Source of the DNA: Liolophura sinensis
Lineage: Eukaryota > Mollusca > Polyplacophora > Chitonida > Chitonidae
Direction: 5' to 3'
Length of the DNA: 64,000 nucleotides
Assembly (NCBI RefSeq): GCF_032854445.1
Contig: NC_088295.1
Location: 53,549,249-53,613,248 of the forward strand
Shown here one piece after another: positions 38,023-63,140 of this stretch (position 1 is its first letter; each line of letters opens with the position of its first letter). A model generated the notes under the pieces. It saw only the letters and a program-made list of their open reading frames with translations. It ran no database searches and was not told the DNA's origin. The position numbers and the translations under genes were made by a program.

Positions 38023-38151
38023 ACTTTATACCCTAACATGCTGTTAAACTGTCAGAGAGACGACACAGTATACTGTGTTATTGCGACAAACTCTCCTGTT
38101 ACATATGACATAATTATTCTGTTACTCCAACATAATATTTTTCTTGGTGTA

Positions 38152-38417
38152 TTTATTTATTTATTTGATTGGTGTTTTACGCTGTACTCAAGAATATTTC
38201 ACTTATACGACGGCGGCCAGCATTATGGTGAGTGGAAACCGGGCAGAGCCCGGGGGAAACCCACGACCATCCGCAGGTTGCTGGAAGACCTTCCCACGTA
38301 CGGCCGGAGAGGAAGCCAGCACGAGCTGGACTTGAACTCACAGCGACCGCATTGGTGAGAGATTCCTGGGTCATTACGCTGCGCTAGCGCGCTAACCAAC
38401 TGAGTCACGGAGGCCCC
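38152..38417 (-). mobile_element. tRNA-derived SINE, family A, full length with target-site duplication
   Basis: Read on the minus strand it begins ggggcctccgtgactcagtt (A box), has gtgagttcaagtccagctc (B box), then the shared body and an AAAT tail. It is flanked by an exact 13-bp direct repeat, ttttcttggtgta, at 38139-38151 and 38418-38430. The long exact flank suggests a fairly recent insertion. This is the best-preserved copy for defining the family. Confidence 0.95.
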
Positions 38418-40747: not shown

Positions 40748-43700
40748 ATGGCGGCCAGAAATCCAGGCTGTTCGTTTGGTAAGGTGAAGTGTTTCCCACA
40801 TTATACCCAAACGAAGATCACGTGGGCAATTGTGAAGTCTTGTATAATTTCAAGCCGTTATATGCCTGATAATCAACGTTGTCTCCTTTTGCAATTTTGA
40901 AATATATTCTGCACAAATTATAGGCCATGTCAACAATACTGCTTTACTACATGTTTCCAATGTATGTGGGGTAGGGGTGGGAGGGTGAGTGTGGGGTGGT
41001 TGCAGAGGGTGTGAGGATGGTGGGGAGGGGGTGAGGATGGTTCTCGGACGTACTGTTATCTGCGTACCATGAATCAGTTAGCTCCGTCAATCAATTAGGG
41101 TGGGGAAGGAGGGAAGTGAGGATGCCCCTAAGGGTTATTATCCCCATAATAACCCTTAGGGGCATACAGACATGACATGTACACCTGAGTGTGAAGTACC
41201 ATTTTTAAAGTATTTGGTGTCACCCAACGCAGGTTTGATCCCAGGGCCCAGTTTCACAAAGCGGCGTACGATATATTTTAATCGTACACTTGGCGGATGA
41301 TATTTCCACTATTTCCACACTATTGTCCTATATGTGTGATTGTCATACATGTACGACGTCTTTGTGAAACTGGGCCCTGGTCTCCCAGACTTCGAGGTGG
41401 ATGCACTAACCACCAGATTACCAATGGAATTAAGTGTTTTATCCAGATGGTCATACAAAGTATTAGAGTCAATTTATGCTTTACAGACTGATAGATATCT
41501 TGTAACATACAAACATGATAAGGCTGTGGACAAAGCGTGACTTCGGTTACTTCAAATGCGATATCACAAAGACAAACAGTTATGCTTTTTAAACTTTGTG
41601 TGCGATGCATACAGACACATAAATACATTAGTCTGGTCTTGTGTTTTCTGTTTAAGATTCCGCCTGGCTGGACAATGTATACATAAACTTACCAGCCATA
41701 AAGAGGAGAGCAGACACACTTAGCACACGACGCACAGTTAAGAAACAGTGGCAGGTAATCAAAAGGAATTCCTTTACAGTTTTTACTTTAATTTGTGGCT
41801 CAGCGTATAGCTATTCTATAAAGACAAATCTTTACATGTGTTTGGTTATTTACAAATGTGTAAATTGATAGCTAGCTTGATCAGATGAAGTACATGCAGG
41901 TCTTCCACTGTCACAGTGTTTAATAATTTGTTTATTTAATGAATAAATATACATGTGTTTATGTGATACACTTGTGTCATCGGGAATTGAAATCTTAAGA
42001 TAACATGAGATGAACAGACTAATATCATTTTAAGTCAGTTACCCTAATTTTTCTCAAATTTGGGACAGTTATTAGTAGTGGTGAAAATAGAATATTACAT
42101 TTCTTTCCCAGCCTTGTGAAAAAGTAAAGATATGAGAATGTTGGTCATTAGATGGTCTTTCATGTGAGAAAAAAGAAACTCAGTATTCCTGCTAGAATTA
42201 TATATATACTGGCTAAAATAAGCAGACCAGGTGTCCCAAAGTTTAGAAGAAATAGGGTATGTCTTCTGTCTTCGTGTCTGTAAAATGTTAATATCTGCAG
42301 GCTGCCTGGTTGTTGAAGGCTGTCACATGTATAGACCTGACCACTCTCTCAGGTGACGACACCCCAGCCAATACAGCGAGACTTTGCTACAAAGCCAAAC
42401 ATCCAATCAGGGAAGACCTTTTGAAAGCAGTGGGAATGGAAAACAGTGGTAATGTACTGTGTGTTAATGTTTGGACAGATAATCATTATCACTATAGGCC
42501 ATGCTCTAGAAAGTTATGTAATACGATGCTTAAATATGAAACAGCAGGTGAAAACTTGTAGCCCACAACAGGTCTTTTTGATGAAGAATAGCTCTATTAA
42601 TATTGAAGCATGCTTTGGAGATCTTTGAGTTATAACAGGGTATTTCTCATCTGTCTTGATAGCTGGATTGGAAGATGCCTATCTGCTACGAAAACCAGTT
42701 ATTTTTGATATCATTCTGGTTTATTCGCTACAATATGGCTGAAGTATTCCTGCTGTGGCCTTAAACCATATTCAGTATTCATTGATACATGCATGTTTTC
42801 ATATTGTATCACGTTAACACCTTCCCAGACAATGTTTTTAAATTTTGGTAACGAACTAATGGAGAACTGGCTCTTTAATGAAAAAGAGGCTGGTTGAGGC
42901 TATGAAGTATTTGTTCTTTTGAGTAATATGTTGCTGTTTTTATATATTTATTGTACTTGTAAAAGTATTTCACAAACATAATAGCATAACAGCAGGGAAT
43001 CATGTGTTTTTACTCAACTTTAACCCAGCTTTATCAAGTGGGAGATGCTCCCCATGTATTTACATACATGTTAACTTGTATGTACCATTTGTCCTGTTTG
43101 CCTGAATAACACCAGGCTTTACATACATGTTAACTTGTATGTACCATTTGTCCTGTTTGCCTGAATAACACCAGGCTTTACATACATGTTAACTTGTACG
43201 TAGCATTTGTCCTGTTTGCAGGAACAACAGGCTTTACATATATGTTAACTTGTACGTAGCATTTGTCCTGTTTGCAGGAATAACAACAGGCTTTACATAC
43301 ATGTTAACTTGTACGTAGCATTTGTCCTGTTTGCAGGAACAACAGGCTTTACATATATGTTAACTTGTATGTAGCATTTGTCCTGTTTGCAGGAATAACA
43401 ACAGGCTTTACATACATGTTAACTTGTACGTAGCATTTGTCCTGTTTGCAGGAATAACAACAGGCTGTGTATGTGTGTACCCTAGCCGGGTGGCAGAATG
43501 CGTGAAATTCCTCAAAGAGGCAGGTGGACCAGATATCCATGTGGCTTCAGGTAGAACTGCTCTCATTTTCTAGTACATAATCAGTGCCTTTTACCAGATG
43601 TAAACAAAAGCAATGGTCCTGGAACATGAACATGTGGATGGTGTTGTTGTTGGAATCTTAATGTCAAGCTTACTGCTGTGTGTATGTTGTATGAAGTGAT

Positions 43701-46700
43701 TGAGATTTAGGGTGAAAGAGTACATGACACAGAAAAAATGTTTACTTGATTTATTTATTTATTTATTTATGGATTTCTTTATTTATTTGATTGGTGTTTT
43801 ACGCCGCACTCAAGAATATTTCATTCATACGACGGCGGCCAGCATTATGGTGGGAGGGAACTTGGCAGAGTCCGGGGAAAACCCATGACCATCCACAGGG
43901 TCCTGGAAGACCTTCCCACGTACGGTCGCAGAGGAAGCCAGCATGAGCTGGTCTTGAGCTCACAGTGACCGCATTGGTGAGAGGTTCCTGGGTTATTGCG
44001 CTGTGCTAGTGAGCTTACTTGATTTAAAAAGAATATACGTTTGTATATAAGTGTATACAACATAGCAGGTGCTTAGGGGTCAGCTGAGGCAGTAGGAACC
44101 ATCAGATACAGTACAGCTTGCATCTTGCCAATTATCTTACACCCATCATGGCCAGACAGGGGCCTCCGTGGCTCAGTTGAGTAGAGCACTTGCACAAAAC
44201 ATACACATGTAGCAGTTGTGATGATGTCATAAAATCATCCGGGCACGTAATGTCATAAAATCATGCTCCAATTGCCCAGACACAATGGTACCATGTTGGT
44301 GCCATGACATCCGAATCCTGATTCATCATACACGTACAAAGGAACATGATCGGACCATGGTGGACACACCATACGCCGACCATGGAGCCGTCATGGGCAT
44401 AGAATATTCAGCTGGAATGCAGCTACACTGTAGTTGAGGGAAGAGAATTTTCAGGAATCTAAAAAAACCAACAAAAAATGTCATGCTTATGTCAGCCATG
44501 TTAATGTAGGTACAAATAACTATAAGCTTCACTGAGTTCCAACTCATTCCAGTCCAAACATACCTGTTTTAATGCTTTTTGCCTGTTTTGGCTGGTGTTA
44601 TATCAGAAAAATCAAGGGATGGGGGAGGCAAATTTGTCCACCTATTGCATTATCTGTACTTCTTATAGAAAGTAATACCTTAACAATAAGCAGTTATATT
44701 TCATCAGTAGTAACTTAACTGAGGTAAAACTTTTGCTGTTGCCTCCCACAGTTGCTACAGGCTTCCCATCAGGACAATACCCACTGAAGACCCGCCTGGA
44801 GGAGTGTCGGCAGGTGGTCGCCGACGGGGGCGCTGGAGGTGGACGTCGTTATTAACCGACATTACGCCCTGACCGGCAACTGGAAGGGTAGGTGGCACTA
44901 TTTCTATCCGGTGGCACTATTTCTGTCAGGTGGCACTGTTTCTGTCAGGTGGCATGGTTTCTGTCAGGTGGCACTGTTTCTGTCAGGTGGCATAGTTTCT
45001 TTCAGGTCAGGTGGCACAGTTTCTTTCAGGTCAGGTGGCACTGTTTCTGTCAGGTGGCACGGTTTCTGTCAGGTGGCACAGTTTCTGTCAGGGATTGATG
45101 TACAACTGAATGGCTGACAGTGGTGATATAAGATCAGATGTCACTGTTGCTTTTTGTGTTCTGCTCCAGAACTTCCCTAAATATTATCCAGTGTTTTACA
45201 TTTAATGTGCTAATAGCTATGTAAGGGAAAAAAAAAAACAAAGATGGATCTAAATGCCTCGTGGTAGCGGAACTATTGCAGAAATTTAGGGTTGTCATTC
45301 AGTTATGTGTAATCAGGCATGTTTGGAGAGGACTGGAGTGGGTTGTTGTGGAGAGGTTAAGATAAGCATTTCCATCGCTAGGAAACACGCTATGGGTTCA
45401 ATCTCGGCTTTAGACATGGAATTTGTGGATTTTGCTCTTATTGTTCATGGAACATTGTTGAAAATAAGCTGTTGATGACACTTGTGCAGCCATTGATGCA
45501 GTAGTACGTGCATTGAAGACCATCTGTCTTCCATTAGCCTGGTGTTAATATCTGTACGTGATACATGGGAAAAGTTTATCTGTGACTTTCCAAACCCGAA
45601 CACTTCAATTTCTTACGGCTATGAAAAAAGTGACAGTAGTATAAGCTAAAAATTATACTGGAGTAGCCGGAGTATGACATAAAATAACAATCAAACACAT
45701 AGGTTTTTTTTTGGATTGGTGTTTTACGCCGTACTCAAGAATATTTCACTTATTCGATGGTGGCCAGCATTATGGTGGGTGGAAACCGAGCAGAGCCCGG
45801 GGAAAACCCACGACCATCCGCAGGTTGCTGACAGACCTTCCCACGTACAGCCGGAGAGGAAGCCAGCATAAGCTGGTCTTGAATGCGACCGCATTGGTGA
45901 GAGGCTTCTGGGTCACTACGCTGTGCTAACGCGCTAACTGACTGAGCCACGGAGGCCCCCACATAGATTGAAGATTCAGACAAGATGTGTATCACTCCCT
46001 GCCCAGAACAGTGCACACAGAGGTGTATTCTCATTTGTAAAGTTTTTTTTTTGTTTTTTGCCTCTAAAAGTGCAATTTTTGAAGCAAAATTTAAGGCCAT
46101 TTGTCATAGTACTTACAGAGCCAGAGAACATGTATTTAAGAAAGTCTAAATTTTTCCTCTTGGGATGTTTTGTTTTTTGTCTTCATTAGTTGGGTTTGGA
46201 AATCTGAGATATTCATCTTTGCATTGTTGCCTTAGTTCGCTGCAATTTTGCATCCTCCTCAAACAGTATTTATATATTTATTCCTATGTAAACCTCTCCT
46301 CCCTCAGGTGTATACAATGAGGTCAGACAGATGAGAGAAGCGTGTGGGGAAGCTCACCTTAAGACCATCCTGGCTGTGGGAGAACTGGGCTCTATGATTA
46401 ATGTATACAAGGCCAGCATGGCCTGCATGATGGCAGGTGAGTGGTACTGACAGTGGAGGGTACTGCATGAGCAACTTGATGGCAGGTAAGTGGAGGGTAC
46501 TGCATGAGCAACTTGATGGCAGGTAAGTGGAGGGTACTGAATGAGCAACTTGATGGCAGGTAAGTGGAGGGTACTGAATGAGCAACTTGATGGCAGGTGA
46601 GTGGTACTGACAGTGGAGGGTACTGCATGAGCAACTTGATGGCAGGTGAGTGGTACTGACAGTGGAGGGTACTGCATGAGCAACATGATGGCAGGTAAGT

Positions 46701-49700
46701 GGAGGGTACTGCATGAGCAACTTGATGGCAAGTAAGTGGAGGGTACTGCATGAGCAACTTGATGGCAGATAAGTGGTACTGACAGTGGAGGGCACTGCAT
46801 GAGCAACTTGATGGCAGGTGAGTGGTACTCACAGTGGAGGGCACTGCATGAGCAACTTGATCGCAGATAAGTGGTACTCACAGTGAAGGGTACTGCATGA
46901 GCAACTTGATGGCAGATAAGTGATACTCACAGTGAAGGGTACTGCATGAGCAACTTGATGGCAGATAAGTGGTACTCACAGTGTAGGGTACTGCATGAGC
47001 AACTTTATGGCAGGTGAGTGGTACTCACAGTGAAGGGTACTGCATGAGCAACTTGATGGCAGGTGAGTGGTACTGACAGTGGAAGGTACTGCATGAGCAA
47101 CTTGATGGCAGGTGAGTGGTACTGACAGTGGAGGGTACTGCATGAGGAACTTGATGACAGATAAGTGGTACTCACAGTGGAGGGTACTGCATGAGCAACT
47201 TGATGGCAGGTAAGTGGTACTCACAGTGGAGAGTACTGCATGAGATACTTAATGGCAGGTGAGTGGTACTCACAGTCGAGGGCACTGCATGAGATGCTTG
47301 ATGGCAGATAAGTGGTACTTACAGTGGGGGTACTGCATGGGCAACTTGATGGCAGGTAAGTGGTACTGACAGTGGAGGGTACTGCATGAGCAACTTGATG
47401 GCAAATAAGTGCTACTTACAGTGGGGGTACTACATGAGCAGCTTGATGGCAGATAAGTGGTACTGACAGTGGAGAGCACTGCATGAGGAACTTGATGGCA
47501 GGTGAGTGGTACTGACAGTGGAGGGCACTGCATGAGCAACTTGATGGCAGATAAGTGGTACTGAAAGTGGAGGGCACTGCATGAGCAACTTGATGACAGG
47601 TGAGTGGTACTCACAGTGGAGGGTAGTGCATGAGCAACTTGATGGCAGGTGAGTGGTACTCACAGTGGAGGGTACTACAGATAAGTGGTACTCACAGTGA
47701 AGGGTACTGCATGAGCAACTTGATGGCAGGTGAGTGGTACTGACAGTGGAGGGTACTGCATGAGCAACTTGATGGCAGGTGAGTGGTACTCACAGTCGAG
47801 GGCACTGCATGAGATGCTTGATGGCAGATAAGTGGTACTCACAGTGAAGGGTACTGCATGAGCAACTTGATGGCAGGTAAGTGGTACTCACAGTGGAGAG
47901 TACTGCATGAGATACTTGATGGCAGGTAAGTGGTACTCACAGTGGAGGGTACTGCATGAGCAACTTGATGGCAGGTGAGTGGTACTGACAGTGGAGGGTA
48001 CTGCATGAGGAACTTGATGGCAGATAAGTGGTACTGACAGTGGAGGGTACTGCATGAGGAACTTGATGGCAGGTAAGTGGTACTCACAGTGGAGAGTACT
48101 GCATGAGATACTTGATGGCAGGTAAGTGGTACTGACAGTGGAGGGTACTGCATGAGCAACTTGATGGCAGGTGAGTGGTACTCACAGTGGAGGGCACTGC
48201 ATGAGGAACTTGATGGCAGGTGAGTGGTACTGACAGTGGAGGGCACTGCATGAGCAACTTGATGGCAGGTAAGTGGTACTCACAGTGGAGGGCACTGCAT
48301 GAGCAACTTGATGGCAGGTGAGTGGTACTGACAGTGGAGGGTACTGCATGAGCAACTTGATGGCAGGTGAGTGGTACTGACAGTGGAGGGCACTGCATGA
48401 GCAACTTGATGGCAGGTGAGTGGTACTCACAGTGAAGGGTACTACATGAGCAACTTGATGGCAGGTGAGTGGTACTGACAGTGGAGGGCACTGCATGAGC
48501 AACTTGATGGCAGGTGAGTGGTACTCACAGTGAAGGGTACTGCATGAGCAACTTGATGGCAGGTGAGTGGTACTGACAGTGGAGGGCACTGCATGAGCAA
48601 CTTGATGGTGCTGTAGGGCATTAGGACTATACCAGTAAGCCAGGTATTAACTTTAATATGGACTTAAGTGCCGTTAGTTGGTGTTATGACGAGACTGTTA
48701 TTTAATGCTAGTTTAATTTTTATACACTTTTGAAAGGGGTACTAGCAGATTTTCCTCTAACAAAAGATGCCGCCATTGTGACATAGGACTTGCACATCAA
48801 AAAGGTTTTGTTTTACTGCACCAAACATGCTGCGCTCTGTGGGTTCATCTGTGACATATTTGGCTTACCCACTGTGATGATGCGCTGTGGACGCTGGAGT
48901 GGAACACGTCTCACTCCGGACTTATGCCGGTATCCCATAGGCTCAAGTAGATGTAAATAATTGAGGAATTTGTAGATTATGTTTTGCTCTGTCACAAATA
49001 ATCGTGCGGTCGCTGTGAGTTCAAGTCCAGCTCATGCTGGCTTCCTCTCCGGCCGTAAGTGGGAAGGTTTGCCAGCAACCTGCGGATGGTCGTGGGTTTC
49101 CCCCGGGCTGTGCCCGGTTTCCACCCACCATAATGCTGGCCGCCGTCGTATAAGTGAAATATTCTTGAGTGCCACAAGCTATGATCATCAGTGATCAGTA
49201 AAGATTCTGTGGTCAAAAATAGACTCAGTCCAGTCTGTGTGGCAATGATGGACTTTTATTTCTCATAATGTCAGAATGTCCAGGCTTTCATGTCAACCTG
49301 GACTTCTTAAGTGAAAAAGGGAGTGTATATCATAAAACTGATGGTTTAAAATATGTTCTCTAGAAACGGAAAAAGTTGTTCAACTTTTGATGACACTTAT
49401 TGTCTAGTCAACCAGTAACTGGGAGCAGAATTTTACTCAGGAAGACTTACCTTGGACTGTTCATAGTAATTTAGGTCGGTAGCAAATGTCTACAGCACAC
49501 AGTCAAAACTCGCTGTGCTAGCTGGCATGTCAGTTTAGATTCTCTAAAAGAAAAAAACATAGTAGTTTTAGTTATGGAAAATAGCCTTCTGTTGTACATG
49601 GTGGAATGTCTTGTGTGTGTGTGTTTTTTTTCAAAGGTGCTGATTTTATCAAGACTTCTACAGGTAAAGAAGCTGTCAATGCCACCCTTCCAGTAGGCCT

Positions 49701-50540
49701 GGTGATGACCCGAGCGATCAGAGAGTACTACAAGAGAACGGGTTACAAGGTGACAAAAACACAAATAATTAGTATCTGTATATCAATTTCGTTTTTCAGT
49801 ATTTTAAATTCAACAGTTCAATTATTAAACTACTATTGACTTATTATCTAAATGATTCATGCCTAGTAAGTCTGTAAGAATTCAACATTTGTCTCTTTTG
49901 CTATTAATAGTGGTTTGGGAGATGTATTTATTTGAAGATATCAGACATACCAACCGGGAGTTTGCGGTATTGCATTTCGTTTCCGACCATGTGACTTGTT
50001 TAGCATGAGTAAACTAGCCAGGTGTTTGTTTTAAATATGTGTCGTTGCCCACATAATTGAATTGTCTCATTGTTTGATTATATTTTGCAGTCAACCTTCT
50101 CTTTCTAAGCACTTTAACTTTTATGTTTGTGTAAAATTGAAAAAAAAATTAAAATAAAACATGGCATTTCAGATGTTTGTTTTTATATACTGTAAATCTT
50201 CTACCTTTTCAACCTTTCAAGCTCTTAACTTTTTTGGTGCTTTTCGGTGAACACTGTCTGCAAATCTGGTAGACAGAAAAGTGGAAATAGGGGAAAGGAC
50301 ACCTGAAATGATTGAAGGCTTTGTTGTTTACAGGTAGGGTTCAAACCAGCTGGAGGGATCCGGTCTGCTAAGGACGCCTGTACATGGCTGAGCCTGATGA
50401 AGGAGGAGCTCGGGGTGGAGTGGATGCAACCCTTGCTCTTCCGCATTGGGGCAAGTTCTTTGTTGGGGGACATAGAGCGTCAGCTGTTCCACCATGTGAC
50501 TGGTCGCTATGCTGCGGCCCACGAACTACCACTGGCTTAA
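40748..50540 (+). CDS. DERA: Deoxyribose-phosphate aldolase, eight exons, about 319 aa
   Basis: It splits 2-deoxyribose 5-phosphate into glyceraldehyde 3-phosphate and acetaldehyde (EC 4.1.2.4), the last step of deoxynucleoside breakdown, in the cytosol. Exons: 40748-40778, 41657-41754, 42301-42448, 43452-43550, 44752-44887, 46308-46436, 49637-49749, 50334-50540. All junctions are GT-AG with matching phases; the protein is close to the length of human DERA. It starts MAARNPGCSF (context aaacATGg) and ends ELPLA, stop TAA. Class I aldolase residues: Asp156 in VDVVIN, Schiff-base Lys219 in DFIKTSTGK and Lys255 in GFKPAGG, matching E. coli Asp102, Lys167 and Lys201 by motif. Exon 5 has one extra G in a run at 44826-44830 that breaks the frame. 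Introns 3, 5 and 6 carry arrays that include this gene's own splice sites. Confidence 0.97.
40965..41037 (+). repeat. G-rich tract in DERA intron 1
   Basis: Closely spaced runs of three to six G (gtaggggtgggagggtgagt and onward to ggtggggagggggtgagg). It has G-quadruplex potential on the transcribed-sense strand. Low-complexity, not coding. Confidence 0.6.
41122..41165. repeat. Perfect 19-bp stem hairpin in DERA intron 1
   Basis: atgcccctaagggttatta at 41122-41140 is followed by a 6-nt loop and its exact reverse complement at 41147-41165. Confidence 0.9.
41241..41380. mobile_element. Foldback (MITE-like) element with 21-bp perfect inverted ends
   Basis: The left end reads ccagggcccagtttcacaaa then g, and the right end is its exact reverse complement, finishing gaaactgggccctgg at 41380. 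Total 140 bp in DERA intron 1. The termini share the gggcccanttncacnaagc-like pattern with the element at 27,108, so they may be one family. Confidence 0.85.
43059..43465 (+). repeat. 56-59-bp minisatellite carrying the DERA intron 3 acceptor, 7 copies
   Basis: Copies start at 43059, 43118, 43177, 43233, 43292, 43348 and 43407. Each holds acatacatgttaacttgta, a pyrimidine-rich gtcctgtttgc and the sequence that in the last copy is the acceptor plus the first 14 bases of exon 4 (gaataacaacaggc). Copies 3-7 keep an AG acceptor; copies 1 and 2 read gcctg and lack it. Only the last copy continues into the real exon; the others run into a stop soon after. Confidence 0.95.
43753..44014 (-). mobile_element. 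tRNA-derived SINE, family A, with target-site duplication
   Basis: Minus-strand copy in DERA intron 4, with B box, body and AAAT tail (seen as attt repeats on the plus strand). The head is slightly truncated. It is flanked by the 11-bp direct repeat ttacttgattt at 43742-43752 and 44015-44025. Confidence 0.92.
44159..44197 (+). mobile_element. SINE family A head fragment
   Basis: ggggcctccgtggctcagtt followed by gagtagagcacttgcac matches the A-box head only; no body follows. It could also be a tRNA-like fragment of separate origin. Confidence 0.5.
44888..45091 (+). repeat. 19-bp minisatellite starting at the DERA exon 5 donor, 10 copies
   Basis: The unit is ggtggcactgtttctgtca, and the first copy is the donor itself (gtaggtggcac). 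Units have the pyrimidine tract and cag of an acceptor (tttctgtcag) next to gtggca, so the array is a string of weak acceptor- and donor-like sites. Two units carry an extra ttcaggtcag insertion. Confidence 0.93.
45703..45959 (-). mobile_element. tRNA-derived SINE, family A
   Basis: Minus-strand copy in DERA intron 5, running from the A-box head ggggcctccgtggctcagtc to the conserved gtgttttacgccgtactcaa 3' end; the AAAT tail is replaced by a T/A run. A short flank, cacatag, is repeated at 45696-45702 and 45960-45966. Confidence 0.9.
46424..48610 (+). repeat. 49-bp minisatellite grown from the DERA exon 6 donor, about 45 units
   Basis: The array begins with the end of exon 6 (catgatggcag) and its donor gtgagt at 46437. 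The unit is gatggcaggtgagtggtact, gacagtggagggtactgcat and gagcaactt; a 37-bp variant lacks tactgacagtgg. By my count about 45 units follow the true donor and about 32 keep cag then gtgagt or gtaagt; the rest mostly read gataagt, losing the GT. Many units also hold a ctcacag or ctgacag acceptor-like step. The minus strand is open in all frames, giving spurious 130-175-codon frames. Intron 6 spans 46437-49636. Confidence 0.97.
49004..49171 (+). mobile_element. SINE family A fragment, truncated at both ends
   Basis: It runs from gcggtcgctgtgagttcaag (B-box region) to gtgaaatattcttgagt. The head and AAAT tail are missing. It sits in DERA intron 6, about 400 bp after the 49-bp array. Confidence 0.85.
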
Positions 50541-52898: not shown

Positions 52899-54529
52899 GG
52901 GTATTTCTTCTCCACACTTGTTAATGTACTGCCATGAGAAAGTGTGTTAAAGGTGAGTTGGAATACATAGTGGAGCTCAGTGCTTGGTTTTCTTCTCGGT
53001 TTAAGGATATCCCTTATCACTGTTGTACAACTGTTGAAAAGGTTGTAGGAATGACAGATTGGCAGAGAGAATACCCATGAGGTTGTTGGTATTTGTCACT
53101 GGTACAACATGACTTCAGACTCGGCTACTTGGTCAGAATATACTCTGAAGAACATATTTTTGATGTGGCTTGTTTAGAATATTTGCAGGGAATCTGTAAA
53201 AGACTTCTCACTTGTTAGAGACCTCAGGAAACTTCAGTAATCCCAGTTAATACCTTATCTGTGTTTTATCCATGTTATTAAATCACAGACAGTTTTTGGT
53301 TTAAGTAACTGATGAATATGAGTGTATGTGCCTATGTCATAACAGTGTTATCCTTGTAAATGACTTTGTGCTCATATTTGTATATATGATCTGAAGGACC
53401 AGAGAATTTAATCCCATGTGTGTGTGGTGATTCGAAACAAAGAATCAGATATGTATTTTGGACAATATATTTCCATATGTTACAAGAATGTTGCCTTGTT
53501 GTAATTTCGAATATTTTGATCATGTCTAGATATTCGCCCAATTTCATCTAAAGGGCGTATGACCTTGTCGGATCTTATTTTGTAAAGGTCACGTACACTA
53601 TTTACAGTCAGTATTGTCTTTTGTGTTATCGTCACTCTAATGACGACTTGATGCCCTGCCAATCTATATCTAATCGCCAGCTGAGATGTAGATAGTGAGC
53701 GGCTTTGGTGACGTCACCCCGGGATTTTCTTACAGCGCTTACACCTTAAGCCTTGCTGGGGTTAAACCACTTGTAGAACAGTATCGATATATGGTCCCCA
53801 AAGGTAGTGGATGACCAAATCTGACTTAAACAAGCTTAAGTCGTCTTCAGGTCAATGAGAAGCCTCCCTGTTTTATCACCCTTTGAACAGGGGTTATTTG
53901 GCCTCAGACCGCCATTAATTTTCAATAAGCGACAATGTTAACGTTTAGCGCTGTAGCTCAGTCCCAAACATTCCGTGGCAAAATAAGCTTTGGTGTACAC
54001 CTATCCCAGCCAGCGAGAAAGAAGCCATAAAAATCTTGACATAGGTTGACCGTCAAAATATGGACCTTTCTCAGCCGACAGCTGTGAGGGGTGCCTAGCA
54101 ACGCCAAGTGGACGTCACTCGCAGCCTCATCACCACCTGTCTCATTGTATCCTCTCGCCCAGAATTTCAAACTTTTATCATTAAAACTGATATGTGCCCA
54201 TGTTTAGACAATTTCCATCATTTTGATACCAAGCATGCACCTGTACACCAAAAATGGCAGGCTGCAGAGAAGAAAGACTTCACCCTAAAATACACAGAAT
54301 TACGTTCGTACCGAGAAATGAAAGTGCTCACAGGGTCGGGATTCCATTTGATTGTATGCCATATGTCTGGAGTCCTCGGCACGTTCCTCGAGTAAAGTCT
54401 CCTCCTCATAACGTCGTCAGAGTATGTCGGTGTTCAGATACGAAACTCGACCATGGTGGCGTGACCGAAATCTTACTGAAGATGCAGTGGACCCAAGATA
54501 GCCCTCCAAACCATTTTACAGAGGTTGTA

Positions 54530-54772
54530 TTTATTTATTTATTTTATTTGATTGGTGTTTTACGCCGTACTCAAGAATATTTCACTTATACGACGGCGGC
54601 CAGCATTATGGTGGGTGGAAACCGGGCAGAGCCCGGGGGAAACCCACGACCATCCGCAGGTTGCTGGCAGACCTTCCCACGTACGGCCGGAGAGGAAGCC
54701 AGCATGAGCTGGACTTGAACTCACAGCGACCGCATTGGTGAGAGACTCCTGGGTCATTACTCTGCGCTAGCG
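54530..54772 (-). mobile_element. tRNA-derived SINE, family A, with target-site duplication
   Basis: Minus-strand copy with B box, full body and AAAT tail, truncated within the head. It is flanked by the 12-bp direct repeat acagaggttgta at 54518-54529 and 54773-54784. Confidence 0.93.
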
Positions 54773-58982: not shown

Positions 58983-61085
58983 TTATTTTTGTAACTTTAA
59001 CACAGGCATCTCCTCAACTTTTTCTACAGCTGGTGAGATGAACACAATGCTTTTGTTAGGTACGTGTTTCCTGGGGAGATTTACTGTCGCACTTCTCGAA
59101 CTTTGCACACCGTCTTCACACTCCGTAGTGCCCTGCGAATCTGCTTCGTCGATGGCCAGCATTATCGCTGATCCAGAAGAGGAACTTATCTTGGACCGGT
59201 CAACGCTCAATCCGGTAGCTGATCCATGGCCGGAAAAGTGATGTTTTAGTGCTTTGTCCGGGAAACGGCCTTCGAAGGACACGTCTATTCGCGGGACGGC
59301 AAGGAAAGCACTGGATGGTTTGTTGATAATCGTTCTCTTTTCTAGCACATTAGATATACCCTTTTCGTCTAAATTACAACCATTGTATTCGTCATCCGAA
59401 AGTGAATCCTCTACAATGGGTGGAATTACTTTGATAACCACCTGAATAGGCTGTTCTGCGGGAAGAATTGTGGTAGAGATTTGGTCATTAGCTGCATTAG
59501 TTTGCTTCCTGTTTCCTCGTTGTTGTCCTGTTTTTTGTACTTCGTCGTTATCGTCTTGACCACATTCGCCTTTCATAGCCACCATTTTGCTGGGTGTGTC
59601 AAGTTCTCTCTGTGACCTTTCATTAATTTGAGACACTGTTGTTGGTTCAGGATCGAATGAAGTCTCTGGGAATTTGGTTTTTTTGGCAAGCACAAGAGCC
59701 GTGGAGACGGGCTTGCATGCAGTACCATTGATAGCTGGAGCCCCAGTATCCAACTCTGCCTTTTGGGTATATGTATCGCAGACAGGCACACTAATGGAGA
59801 CACTTGTTGGAGCACTTGTAGGAACGATATTGGCGGATGAGGGTGGCCGCTCTAATTCCAGTCGAGTTTCTAAATCCGTAATATTAAATTCCATGGCCGT
59901 AGGTGGTGGGTTCAAGAGGGGGCTAAACGAAGGAGACGGTTGTCTTGGTTGATCTCCGAATGGTTTTCTCACACGTCTACGGTACTGTTGTATTAGTTTC
60001 CAATCTAACTCTATATTCATTTTGTCTGGCACAAATCGGTAGATATCTTCGTAGCTCCCCCTTAGTCTTAACCCCTTCATATCGCTTAAAAAAGGCTTGC
60101 GTCCCATCTGAGTGTTACTGTTGTTATCGCAGTTTTTCAACACAGGGTCCAGAAATCTTACCCTCATGGCATCATCTCGTTTCTGCTGCGTCCAGTCAAA
60201 GATCGGATACAACTCCCTATTTTCGTGTTTCGATTTCGTCACGCTGGGAATAATTCCCTTCAGTTCATTGCCCAGCTCCACTTTTGTCACAGCTGTGTTC
60301 TCGCATTTACTGGGGAAATCGTCCAGAACATGAGCTTGTTTTGACATGTTGGTCTCCGGGCTATCATTCGGATCAGGATCATCTTCACTTTGATGACTGG
60401 AATACTTAGACGGAAGACCATCTGGTTGAAACTGAACAGGATAAACACAGTTTTTAGTCGTGGAATCCAAACGAAACGTTTGTGTAACGTTTCTTCGAGA
60501 CATTTTCCTGCTTTCTGGAAAGTCTTTTTCGTTTTGCTTAAAAGAGCTGACCGGTGAAATTTTATGGGTAGTTACATCACGAGGTTTCAAATTAGAATGA
60601 GCGTTGAGATTCTCCTCTAAGCCAAGTTTGTGAAGCTGCGTATACTTTGTATCCGGTGGTGGGTGTAACTTTTTAAGTTTCGTCGGTTTCTTCACTTTCA
60701 TAAATAGTTTGCTGTTGTCCCTCCACAATGCGACTCCATCAGGAATGTTTCTGTGGAGGAGATTTTTTGGATGAACAGAAAATTGCTTCTTAGCGCCACC
60801 CAATGAAGTCATTGGAACGTCACAAGGTCGTGGGGAAACATTGTACTTTTGATGAACACTCTCACGTGTGGAACGATAGTTTCCGCTCAACTTCTGACTG
60901 TTGGCTTTAGAAATGTCGTCCGGCAAGAAAGCATTATTCTGAATCCCATGAAAATAAACATTGTGGTGTAGAGATGGCTTTGAAGGTCGTTTTGGCAGAT
61001 AAACTGACTTTTGAAACTTCAATGCCATGAGCGTCTTTTCACGTCTCGTGTAGAACGAAATTGGAGGAAGTTTTCCTTCTGACAT
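58983..61085 (-). CDS. Unrecognised 700-residue single-exon protein
   Basis: I do not recognise this protein. The frame is open for 2.1 kb without an intron. I chose the ATG at 61085-61083 (aaaATGtcag; protein starts MSEGKLPPISFYTRR); the frame is open 36 bases further upstream but with no earlier ATG. It is hydrophilic, with no signal peptide or membrane segment, rich in Ser, Pro, Lys and Asn and probably disordered for the most part. The least disordered-looking parts are a basic N-terminus (about 1-45) and a segment near 346-378 (EDIYRFVPDKMNIELDWKL, then IQQYRRRVRKPFGD), predicted helical with a basic patch. Acidic clusters (SEDDPDPNDSPE, EDSLSDDEYN) punctuate it. It converges with DERA. 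It could be a lineage-specific scaffold; function unknown. Confidence 0.8.
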   Translation of the reverse strand: MSEGKLPPISFYTRREKTLMALKFQKSVYLPKRPSKPSLHHNVYFHGIQNNAFLPDDISKANSQKLSGNYRSTRESVHQKYNVSPRPCDVPMTSLGGAKKQFSVHPKNLLHRNIPDGVALWRDNSKLFMKVKKPTKLKKLHPPPDTKYTQLHKLGLEENLNAHSNLKPRDVTTHKISPVSSFKQNEKDFPESRKMSRRNVTQTFRLDSTTKNCVYPVQFQPDGLPSKYSSHQSEDDPDPNDSPETNMSKQAHVLDDFPSKCENTAVTKVELGNELKGIIPSVTKSKHENRELYPIFDWTQQKRDDAMRVRFLDPVLKNCDNNSNTQMGRKPFLSDMKGLRLRGSYEDIYRFVPDKMNIELDWKLIQQYRRRVRKPFGDQPRQPSPSFSPLLNPPPTAMEFNITDLETRLELERPPSSANIVPTSAPTSVSISVPVCDTYTQKAELDTGAPAINGTACKPVSTALVLAKKTKFPETSFDPEPTTVSQINERSQRELDTPSKMVAMKGECGQDDNDEVQKTGQQRGNRKQTNAANDQISTTILPAEQPIQVVIKVIPPIVEDSLSDDEYNGCNLDEKGISNVLEKRTIINKPSSAFLAVPRIDVSFEGRFPDKALKHHFSGHGSATGLSVDRSKISSSSGSAIMLAIDEADSQGTTECEDGVQSSRSATVNLPRKHVPNKSIVFISPAVEKVEEMPVLKLQK

Positions 61086-63140
61086 TTTGGACAAGCCTCG
61101 TAAAATAACGTCAGGTACCAACTGTTAACTCCGTCCGTTTTCTTGTCACGCCATCACCTTAAATAGTCAGCTTTTTCTGAAAAAGATACCACTTGAAACA
61201 ATGTAAAGGGCTTGCTCTGGGATGGCCCTTTGGCTGGACTGGCTGATATTTGCAACCTGTCAAGTATAAGTTTCTCTTATTGGACATTGCAACGTGAAAG
61301 CTAACCAAGACATGGTTTTGTACAGAAGAATTAAGCAATACACACACCGTGGGGTTTTTGATTGCGATCATACGCAGTCCATTACCACGGCAAACTATTT
61401 GTCGTCCAGAGGTGTTAGATTACACTTAACAGCCTGGCGATATCGAGAATAAGAGCGCAAATGGAGTTGACGACCTACGGGCTCTCAAGCGACGTTCTAA
61501 CAGGCAACACAAAGCTGCAGTCAATGGCTCAGCATATTCCGATAATGAAAATGTCCACAAGGTGAAATCAATGCGAGCGACTATGGACAAGTCACAACTG
61601 CTGCTGCTATAAGATCGCCAAGTAATTCTTTACATGCCGACTCGGAAATCCGCTCAACGGAAGCTAAATCTGGCTTTATGAATAAGAGTTCGAGGAGTTA
61701 TGGGTGGCTAATAATTAAGCTGTCTGTAAACACAACCAGCTATTTAACTGTATGCACTCACCTATACGCTCAAAGAAATGCTATGTCAGAAATAACTTTT
61801 GCCGCTGATCTTCTGCCACTTCTGTCAAGGTCCATTTAAGGTTGATATGGTCAGCGATATCCCTGTCGGTGAGTACATTATACTATCGCGATTTGTTCAA
61901 TGCTTGCTTACTGTGTTATCAACCAATGATATTTGATCATGGTACAATACGTCTCTGCATTCTCTCTGTATACAGCTACTCGGAATCCGGCCGTAACTCA
62001 ACACCCACTACACTCACCTGGCTTGGGATAACACTCGATAATATTCACTGGGAATTAAGTCAGTTCTGAATTTAGTGACAACTAATTAACCTATAACTAA
62101 GGTTAATCAGTCGGCTTATATGATGGAGAGCAGGTTGCCTAGGTGATGATTGGCCAGCCGTGGTACTATCTTGAGTCTAAGATAGTTTTCTGACTGCACG
62201 ATATCACCATTACAGCTTTATTTCCCAAAACTATCTTCCTTTACCTTTTCTGGCTTGTTTCGGTTTTTTTTCTTTTATCAAGCTCGTTGAAAGGATATCG
62301 ATTTTTTTTTATCTCTTTTTTGTGATTCTACTAAATAGCCGTCACCGGATATGGGAAACCATGTGCGGGTCTCGACGCAGCAGTCCGGAAGGACACTCTC
62401 CTGACAGTTGTTGGCTGACATCAGTCAAATCTACAACAGGAGCCAGTCATGAAAATCAGTTATCACTGGAAGATATGTTATTTGGGGTGGTGTAAACATC
62501 TGTCATGGTGACACATGAATGCAGATGTACAGGTCTAAACAGGATTCCTTAGGGACAGGGCATCAACTACTGTACCAAGAAATGACTGGTTTGATTTGTT
62601 CTTATCTGAAACCACTTTGATGTTATCTAATTGAAAAGTGAGGTATTTTTGCACATAGCAATTGGTTCATTTGTGTATGTTTTACAGCCAATACCTACAT
62701 ATACACCTGCCTGTCTAAAGAAACGTAGGCTTATGTGACCAATATCATAACACAAAGCTGTTTACATGGTGGATATTTACAAGTAGCATATCTTGAAAGA
62801 GCTGCCAAGAGATATGTTTAAAAGCGATATAAGGGTGATATATCCAAGATAATGTATATATGAAACCATCCTACGTGATCATAATAAACCTTCCTACGTA
62901 AAGTAAGCAAAGGCTGGATTTGAACGTGCGTCCCTATTGACTATATTTCAAAGTTAAACATTCAGCTATTCCTCAAGGTATTATAAGTTATCCGCGTGTT
63001 GAGAAGGGTATTTAGGGATTTAAACCCAAATAGGCTACCCTTGTCAACATGTGAATAACGATTTTGCTCCTACAATATTTATCAATTCTAGATAAGGCTT
63101 TAACCCCATATACCCTTCGTAACAATTGGATAACTTATTT
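61086..63140. other. Intergenic DNA upstream of the 700-residue gene
   Basis: No coding sequence is supported. The promoter of the minus-strand gene is expected near 61,100-61,400. Otherwise AT-rich unique sequence. Confidence 0.5.

Follow-up and report, generated by a model that had tools for sequence, protein, structure and literature searches.

The stretch of DNA considered here is a 64-kb window of the genome of the chiton Liolophura sinensis (bases 53549249-53613248 of contig C1, which is 96 Mb long, in a 609-Mb assembly), and its main feature is a minisatellite that multiplies the 5' splice site, or donor, of one exon within a gene that is, judged by sequence similarity, DERA. The gene was identified from joined exons because single-exon searches gave no match: exon 46308-46436 alone has no match in Pfam, and the DeoC model found nothing when set against the genome exon by exon. 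Once the following two exons are added to it, DeoC (PF01791) is matched at 8.7e-12, and the same three joined exons match solved deoxyribose-phosphate aldolase structures, the best being 5eky (2e-25), which bears out the gene name given in the first-pass annotation, an earlier note on this DNA. The elements of the locus on which the argument depends are as follows.

46308..46436, + strand: DERA exon (exon 6 in the numbering of the first-pass annotation), which ends MACMMAG and with whose last 9 nt, TGATGGCAG, the array opens.
Signals of exon 46308-46436, + strand: acceptor CCTCCCTCAG just upstream, CAG|GTGAGT just downstream; the exon translates as GVYNEVRQMREACGEAHLKTILAVGELGSMINVYKASMACMMAG.
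46437..46442, + strand: presumed true 5' splice site GTGAGT, copy 1 of 46; the frame joins exon 49637-49749 as MMAG-ADFIKTSTGKE.
46428..48608, + strand: 49-bp minisatellite with 46 in-register donor positions, 33 of them CAGGTRAGT.
46769..48029, + strand: region in which 12 units with a dead +1 are mixed among intact ones, with positions read from the sequence and the unit alignment.
46769, 46867, 46916, 46965, 47161, 47308, 47405, 47453, 47551, 47681, 47828 and 48024, + strand: the units that have lost the +1 G.
49637..49749, + strand: next DERA exon, ADFIKTSTGKEAVNATLPVGLVMTRAIREYYKRTGYK.

The array was placed by Tandem Repeats Finder (TRF) together with wraparound alignment. Its period is 49 bp, apart from five units of 36-38 bp close to the exon and some further short ones, and it starts 9 nt before the donor, within the exon, such that the unit spans the exon-intron boundary; an array whose unit holds the exon end plus the donor, as had been proposed, is therefore real. 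Direct counting of the in-register donor 9-mers gives 22 CAGGTGAGT, 11 CAGGTAAGT, 11 CAGATAAGT and one each of CAAGTAAGT and CAAATAAGT. The consensus CAGGTRAGT thus represents the presumed true donor at 46437 and 32 decoys, while the +1 G is lost in 12/46 positions and GT is retained in 34/46, one of these having an altered -1. The first-pass annotation had put about 32 of about 45 units as equal to or better than the true site; the count stands, with 32/45 decoy units at consensus. In computed duplexes with unmodified U1 the 11 CAGGTAAGT sites are weaker by 0.1 kcal/mol than the true CAGGTGAGT. Perfect donor sites are absent from the minus strand of the array on direct count, and the window outside the array holds one such site per strand. 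A search of the 609-Mb genome found the array at this locus and no second copy.

Variant units recur in blocks within the array, a structure that is the mark of repeated re-copying. Read by eye, the unit also appears to contain the last 14 bases of the exon (CTGCATGA..TGGCAG) interrupted by a 9-base insert, and this split exon end points to an initial duplication of some 40 bp. Reading on past the first donor gives GGT GAG TGG TAC TGA in frame, so that any later donor brings in an early in-frame stop, exactly as the earlier reading of the sequence had it.

Is the donor within the unit maintained? A comparison of the decay of GTRAGT with that of the rest of the unit had been suggested as a check on function, and its outcome is mixed, with no clear sign of donor upkeep. 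The alignment statistics cover 40/46 units, the six short units that lack an aligned donor column being left out. Deviation is higher in the donor 9-mer than elsewhere in the unit (0.083 vs 0.046, rank 42 of 49 windows); with A and G counted as equal at +3 that of the 9-mer becomes 0.033 against 0.046, a little lower because +2 and +4 to +6 are invariant. Few positions of the unit vary as much as the +1 G, whose deviation is 0.28. Units dead at +1 lie somewhat nearer the exon (mean relative place 0.34 vs 0.54), and the first six decoys are intact.

Structures of this kind have been described in lancelets (amphioxus) under the name of mirages, and Canestro et al. (2002) are said to have worked on them. 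According to the available parts of two accounts, mirages are minisatellite-like tandem duplications spanning exon-intron boundaries, both 5' and 3', in which the AG/GT signals are kept in many units, the length is unstable and regular splicing is reported intact, their origin being called unclear; they occur in Adh3, in the globins BflGb6 and BflGb9 and in TnC, with similar repeats in PGBD5, and have unit sizes of 10-72 bp in Adh3 and 150-160 bp in the globins (PMC3087553, PMC3902484). The DERA array shares the three anatomical marks of a mirage for which it was tested: it spans the exon-intron boundary, 34/46 units keep GT, and a 3' counterpart lies at 43059-43466 in the same gene. The chiton arrays differ in that they reach 94 units, carry many consensus donors and recur at dozens of sampled arrays.

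A human parallel is the IFI6 gene (6-16, G1P3), in which Turri et al. (1995) reportedly described a minisatellite with multiple splice donor sites. There too a minisatellite at an exon end multiplies the donor, and two downstream repeat units are used as donors to give isoforms, as far as the accessible text describes it (PMC4526556). Whereas the later donors yield isoforms in IFI6, in DERA an early stop follows the first donor and the frame does not remain open. Internal tandem repeats at exon-intron boundaries are likewise reported for human genes in segmental duplications (PMC2812944); these share minisatellite expansion at the boundary, but they concern recently duplicated genes and are linked to novel introns, with no donor series described in the portion of that paper available (PMC2812944). 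Intron gain by tandem genomic duplication, so far as the sources at hand go, similarly involves a duplicated segment with splice signals, the difference being that a new intron arises there whereas an existing intron is lengthened in DERA. No account of such donor arrays genome-wide or in molluscs was found in a literature search of partial coverage, which mostly excludes subscription journals.

The DERA array is one of many in this genome. Fifty-six donor arrays were fetched and 55 analysed, L032 being excluded from all counts as it holds no array by the criterion used; for 20 of them (L039-L058) a mutated middle unit had been a condition of being listed. By eye, and in some cases tentatively, 32/55 start within an open reading frame that runs up to the first donor, with 5 uncertain and 18 showing no such frame. 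For 48 arrays (31 exon, 5 uncertain and 12 non-exonic) the longest of the open frames upstream of the first donor was run against Pfam, the 7/55 arrays with frames below 20 aa (L004, L007, L015, L018, L023, L043 and L054) not being run, and L030 being run in a frame other than the one judged coding. At E <= 0.001 a match was obtained for 12/31 exon arrays, 1/5 uncertain and 0/12 non-exonic ones, a comparison in which the non-exonic frames, being generally shorter, have a lower chance of matching by length alone. At E <= 0.05, where about two chance matches are expected over the 48 frames, 17/31 exon arrays match. Ten of the 12 stricter exon-array matches pass the curated cut-off, and 11/12 reach within 0-4 residues of the donor, the exception being L039 (21). 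The exon-edge arrays with these matches are as follows.

L006: SNF2.
L011: fucosidase.
L012: Fe-hydrogenase-like (94 units).
L020: GH31.
L025: MH2.
L026: DAGK_acc.
L033: LIM.
L039: haem peroxidase.
L041: sushi.
L042: FANCI.
L048: RNA methyltransferase.
L052: OATP.

Seeding from an exon edge, which had been seen for DERA alone in the first-pass annotation, is thus supported both by the start of that array 9 nt inside its exon and by many other genes, and is general in this genome. The exon judgements for L003-L018 were made before the +1 statistics, with L005, L008, L014 and L016 marked likely or doubtful; those for L019-L058 preceded the larger-set statistics, although some +1/+5 states in L039-L058 were already visible and the judgement was not fully blind. 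Listed but unsampled were C2:176925, whose unit equals that of C2:109440, and C6:4289523, which has irregular spacing. From the listings of +1- or +5-dead units, those left unsampled were C1:49776929, C1:63656860, C4:12180444, C5:18581470, C6:43724649, C6:80203933, C6:80795726, C6:81274346, C8:48326380, C9:27757296, C10:2727043, C10:23809209, C11:32278410, C13:2372529, C13:3113035 and C13:28554770.

The phase of the boundary within the unit was considered as proof of seeding and rejected as such, as the arrays show no tendency to begin at the donor; in the 33 exon-edge arrays, of which DERA is one, the fraction of the unit taken up by exon is compatible with a uniform distribution (Kolmogorov-Smirnov p = 0.13), and the lack of clustering fits random-phase seeding. 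A coding use of the units was likewise set aside, given that the period is divisible by 3 in 11/33 exon-edge arrays and that the stop in DERA is immediate.

The explanation that best accounts for the DERA array is that it is an exon-edge minisatellite, a mirage, which is quite probably a tolerated and near-neutral by-product rather than a device. A tandem duplication across the exon-donor junction would start such an array, which would then expand and be re-copied towards the intron, a place where slippage or unequal exchange can be tolerated, while selection would keep the exon intact. The decoy donors would be carried along because the seed held a donor. The first, exon-adjacent donor most likely stays in use through exon definition, and rare use of a later one would give a message with an immediate stop that is presumably degraded. 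The stop behind every later donor, the lack of AATAAA and ATTAAA (below) and the lack of a constraint on phase or period all fit a tolerated by-product, the near-neutrality of which we infer. The first-pass annotation also offered transcript noise or neutrality, either of which may apply. The wider interest of such genes is that a single exon followed by some 10 to 90 nearly equal 5' splice sites provides an unengineered test of the preference for the exon-adjacent donor and of the cost of decoys.

Several genome-wide comparisons weigh against this explanation, and they concern both how the arrays arise and what happens to their donors. Tandem matches to three CAGGTRAGT motifs spaced 15-45 bases number 996 in the genome, against 249 for the reversed motif and, for other control 9-mers in the same spacing search, 45 (another permutation) and 201 (its reverse). 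Among the first 100 sites listed of each, clusters make up 7/59 donor-motif loci vs 2/85 control loci (p = 0.03), and so random seeding may be insufficient. Loss of the +1 G is also higher in exon-edge arrays than in the others (0.133 vs 0.067, p = 0.017; 33 vs 18 arrays), a difference that hints at selection. Finally, deviation at positions -2, -1, +2, +4, +5 and +6 of exon-edge arrays is below that of the remaining unit positions (p 1.6e-5 to 0.03). As the arrays were found by their intact motif, the way of choosing them would by itself produce this low deviation, which cannot be read as upkeep but nonetheless leaves room for it; -2, -1, +2 and +4 also deviate less than the unit rest in the non-exon-edge arrays. 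Both the excess birth of arrays at donors and the excess +1 loss in exon-edge arrays are best taken as leads.

The first of these leads corresponds to the idea that splice sites are preferred birthplaces of minisatellites, with exon-edge arrays commoner than chance placement predicts, which is possible but on balance doubtful. Occurrences of the single donor motif number 19,904 and those of its reverse 7,585, and after correction for frequency (19.8 vs 12.8 loci per Mb) the excess of arrays over the reversed motif is still about 2.6- to 5-fold; three arrays in DERA itself touch splice sites. For the first 100 sites listed, 45 donor motifs vs 10 control motifs fall in clusters of at least three within 300 bases, and among the matches listed the cluster share is 5/71 vs 0/97 at a gap of 100 (p = 0.01) and 7/54 vs 3/82 at a gap of 600 (p = 0.05). 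Against this, the control motifs are few, and the distinct arrays read by eye over C1:0-18.84 Mb number 16 for the donor vs 4 for the control, which gives p = 0.07 against an expected ratio of 1.6. Moreover, 20 myosin-head matches that were not picked for repeats, several of them from the same genes and with a close look at the four loci that have an array within about 80 bases, show an exon-edge array at 1/20 donors (L076, with a 66-bp unit, ATCAG|GTATGT and 8 copies) and at 0/20 acceptors. This is not clearly above the roughly 1% predicted by array density. The 64.8 kb around the myosin-head matches hold 15 arrays, and the 64-kb window holds 14. If exon edges did carry an excess of arrays, minisatellite birth would be tied to splice sites, and mirages, so far known gene by gene in lancelets in the sources available, would become a countable genome-wide trait. 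The spacing search has its own reach: at C1:1291132-1292274 and C1:1413360-1414502 perfect donor motifs recur mostly every 82-96 bases, in 11 and 14 copies, and these arrays were missed by the 15-45 pattern because of their longer period.

The second lead corresponds to a purging of decoys, in which arrays are born neutrally and selection slowly disables the decoys, chiefly at the +1 G. Besides the difference between exon-edge and other arrays, such purging is suggested by a +1 deviation that exceeds that of DERA in L006 (0.36) and L039 (0.32) and nearly equals it in L012 (0.27, where the other eight donor bases deviate by 0.01 or less), the replacing base varying between A, T and C. However, in the cohort not chosen on +1/+5 status the loss is 0.129 vs 0.070 (p = 0.10; 20 vs 12 arrays), and, on a by-eye reading of the genome-wide listings, arrays with a dead middle unit are about as frequent for +5 (41 matches in about 28 arrays) as for +1 (68 in about 25). 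Neither are the dead units nearer the exon overall (p = 0.93, 15 exon-edge arrays with at least three dead units), and the intact state of the first six DERA decoys likewise speaks against purging. Furthermore, 8/33 exon-edge arrays have a +1 deviation of just 0.00 to 0.04, including L026, in which none of 67 units is lost, and L009 (C1:4535000-4540300) has 20/49 units dead at +1 (0.41) with no visible exon. In the larger set the +4 deviation is also higher in exon-edge arrays (0.052 vs 0.015, p = 0.05). Hypervariability of +1 as a general law was accordingly rejected, being strong in the first set, weaker in the larger one and at p = 0.10 in the unselected cohort, and purging as the account of these arrays is unlikely. 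The two ideas can be combined, such that splice sites are preferred minisatellite birthplaces, dozens to hundreds of genes carry long series of consensus donors behind an exon, and the decoys are afterwards lost little by little to selection at the +1 G. This wider picture is rather doubtful; if true, it would represent a permanent experiment of nature on the spliceosome's choice of the first among many equal donors.

A quite improbable alternative is a rheostat of unproductive splicing, whereby later donors would be used at a set rate, the DERA message would decay and the number of units would tune expression. The early in-frame stop behind every later donor and the 32 consensus decoys are what such a device would need. 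Set against it are the lack of a period or phase constraint across the 33 arrays, and the lancelet mirages, which, in the parts of those accounts at hand, are reported as not disturbing splicing.

Very unlikely is the U1 buffer (telescripting) raised in the first-pass annotation, in which the array would recruit many U1 small nuclear ribonucleoproteins (snRNPs) and so guard the pre-mRNA from premature polyadenylation. Protection by U1 against intronic polyadenylation is, in the literature as far as it was accessible, an established phenomenon, the 33 consensus sites are complementary to the U1 5' end with a computed duplex energy of -11.6 or -11.7 kcal/mol each, and the lower deviation of the 9-mer when +3 A and G are pooled would agree with it. 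The proposal is nevertheless not upheld, given that 12/46 sites are dead at +1, that the sense strand of the whole intron, array included, holds neither AATAAA nor ATTAAA, that comparable arrays also lie where no exon is seen and that the arrays show no phase or frame constraint. Recursive splicing, with each AG|GT junction as a ratchet point, could draw on CAG|GTRAGT in 33 units and has next to no likelihood, the bases before AG (GCATGAGCAACTTGATGG) not being a pyrimidine tract. An assembly artefact is hardly credible either: repeats are hard to assemble, but the units are of mixed types, blocks of them are duplicated, the boundaries are sharp and many genes have the same architecture, all of which speaks against one.

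The exon-edge array at 46428-48608 is accompanied by the two other DERA arrays that touch splice sites.

43059..43466, + strand: acceptor-side array with 7 copies of the acceptor stretch TTTGTCCTGTTTGC.., 5 of them continuing to CAG.
44890..45092, + strand: 19-bp array (AGGTGGCACTGTTTCTGTC) that begins at intron base +3, at the donor after the exon ending 44887.

In the acceptor-side array the last copy is the presumed acceptor of the exon starting at 43452, the array ending 15 nt inside that exon. Four intact acceptor copies lie upstream of it, so that the splicing machinery must take the last of the series; the presumed true site is thus the first of its series in the donor array and the last in the acceptor array. 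The 19-bp array has weak donors (CAG|GTGGCA) and a unit without exon bases.

The DERA exon ending at 44887 shows a frame change at a run of five G (44826-44830), with ..VVADGGAGGGRRY* in one frame and ALEVDVVINR.. in another, which is either an assembly slip or a real frameshift. Elsewhere in the window a 713-aa open frame lies at 58983-61124 on the minus strand, with no Pfam match at E <= 0.01. A dispersed repeat is present in at least five copies, at about 38114-38358, 43750-44005, 45683-45925, 48976-49194 and 54502-54741; its copies share similar translated stretches and are SINE-like (resembling a short interspersed nuclear element).

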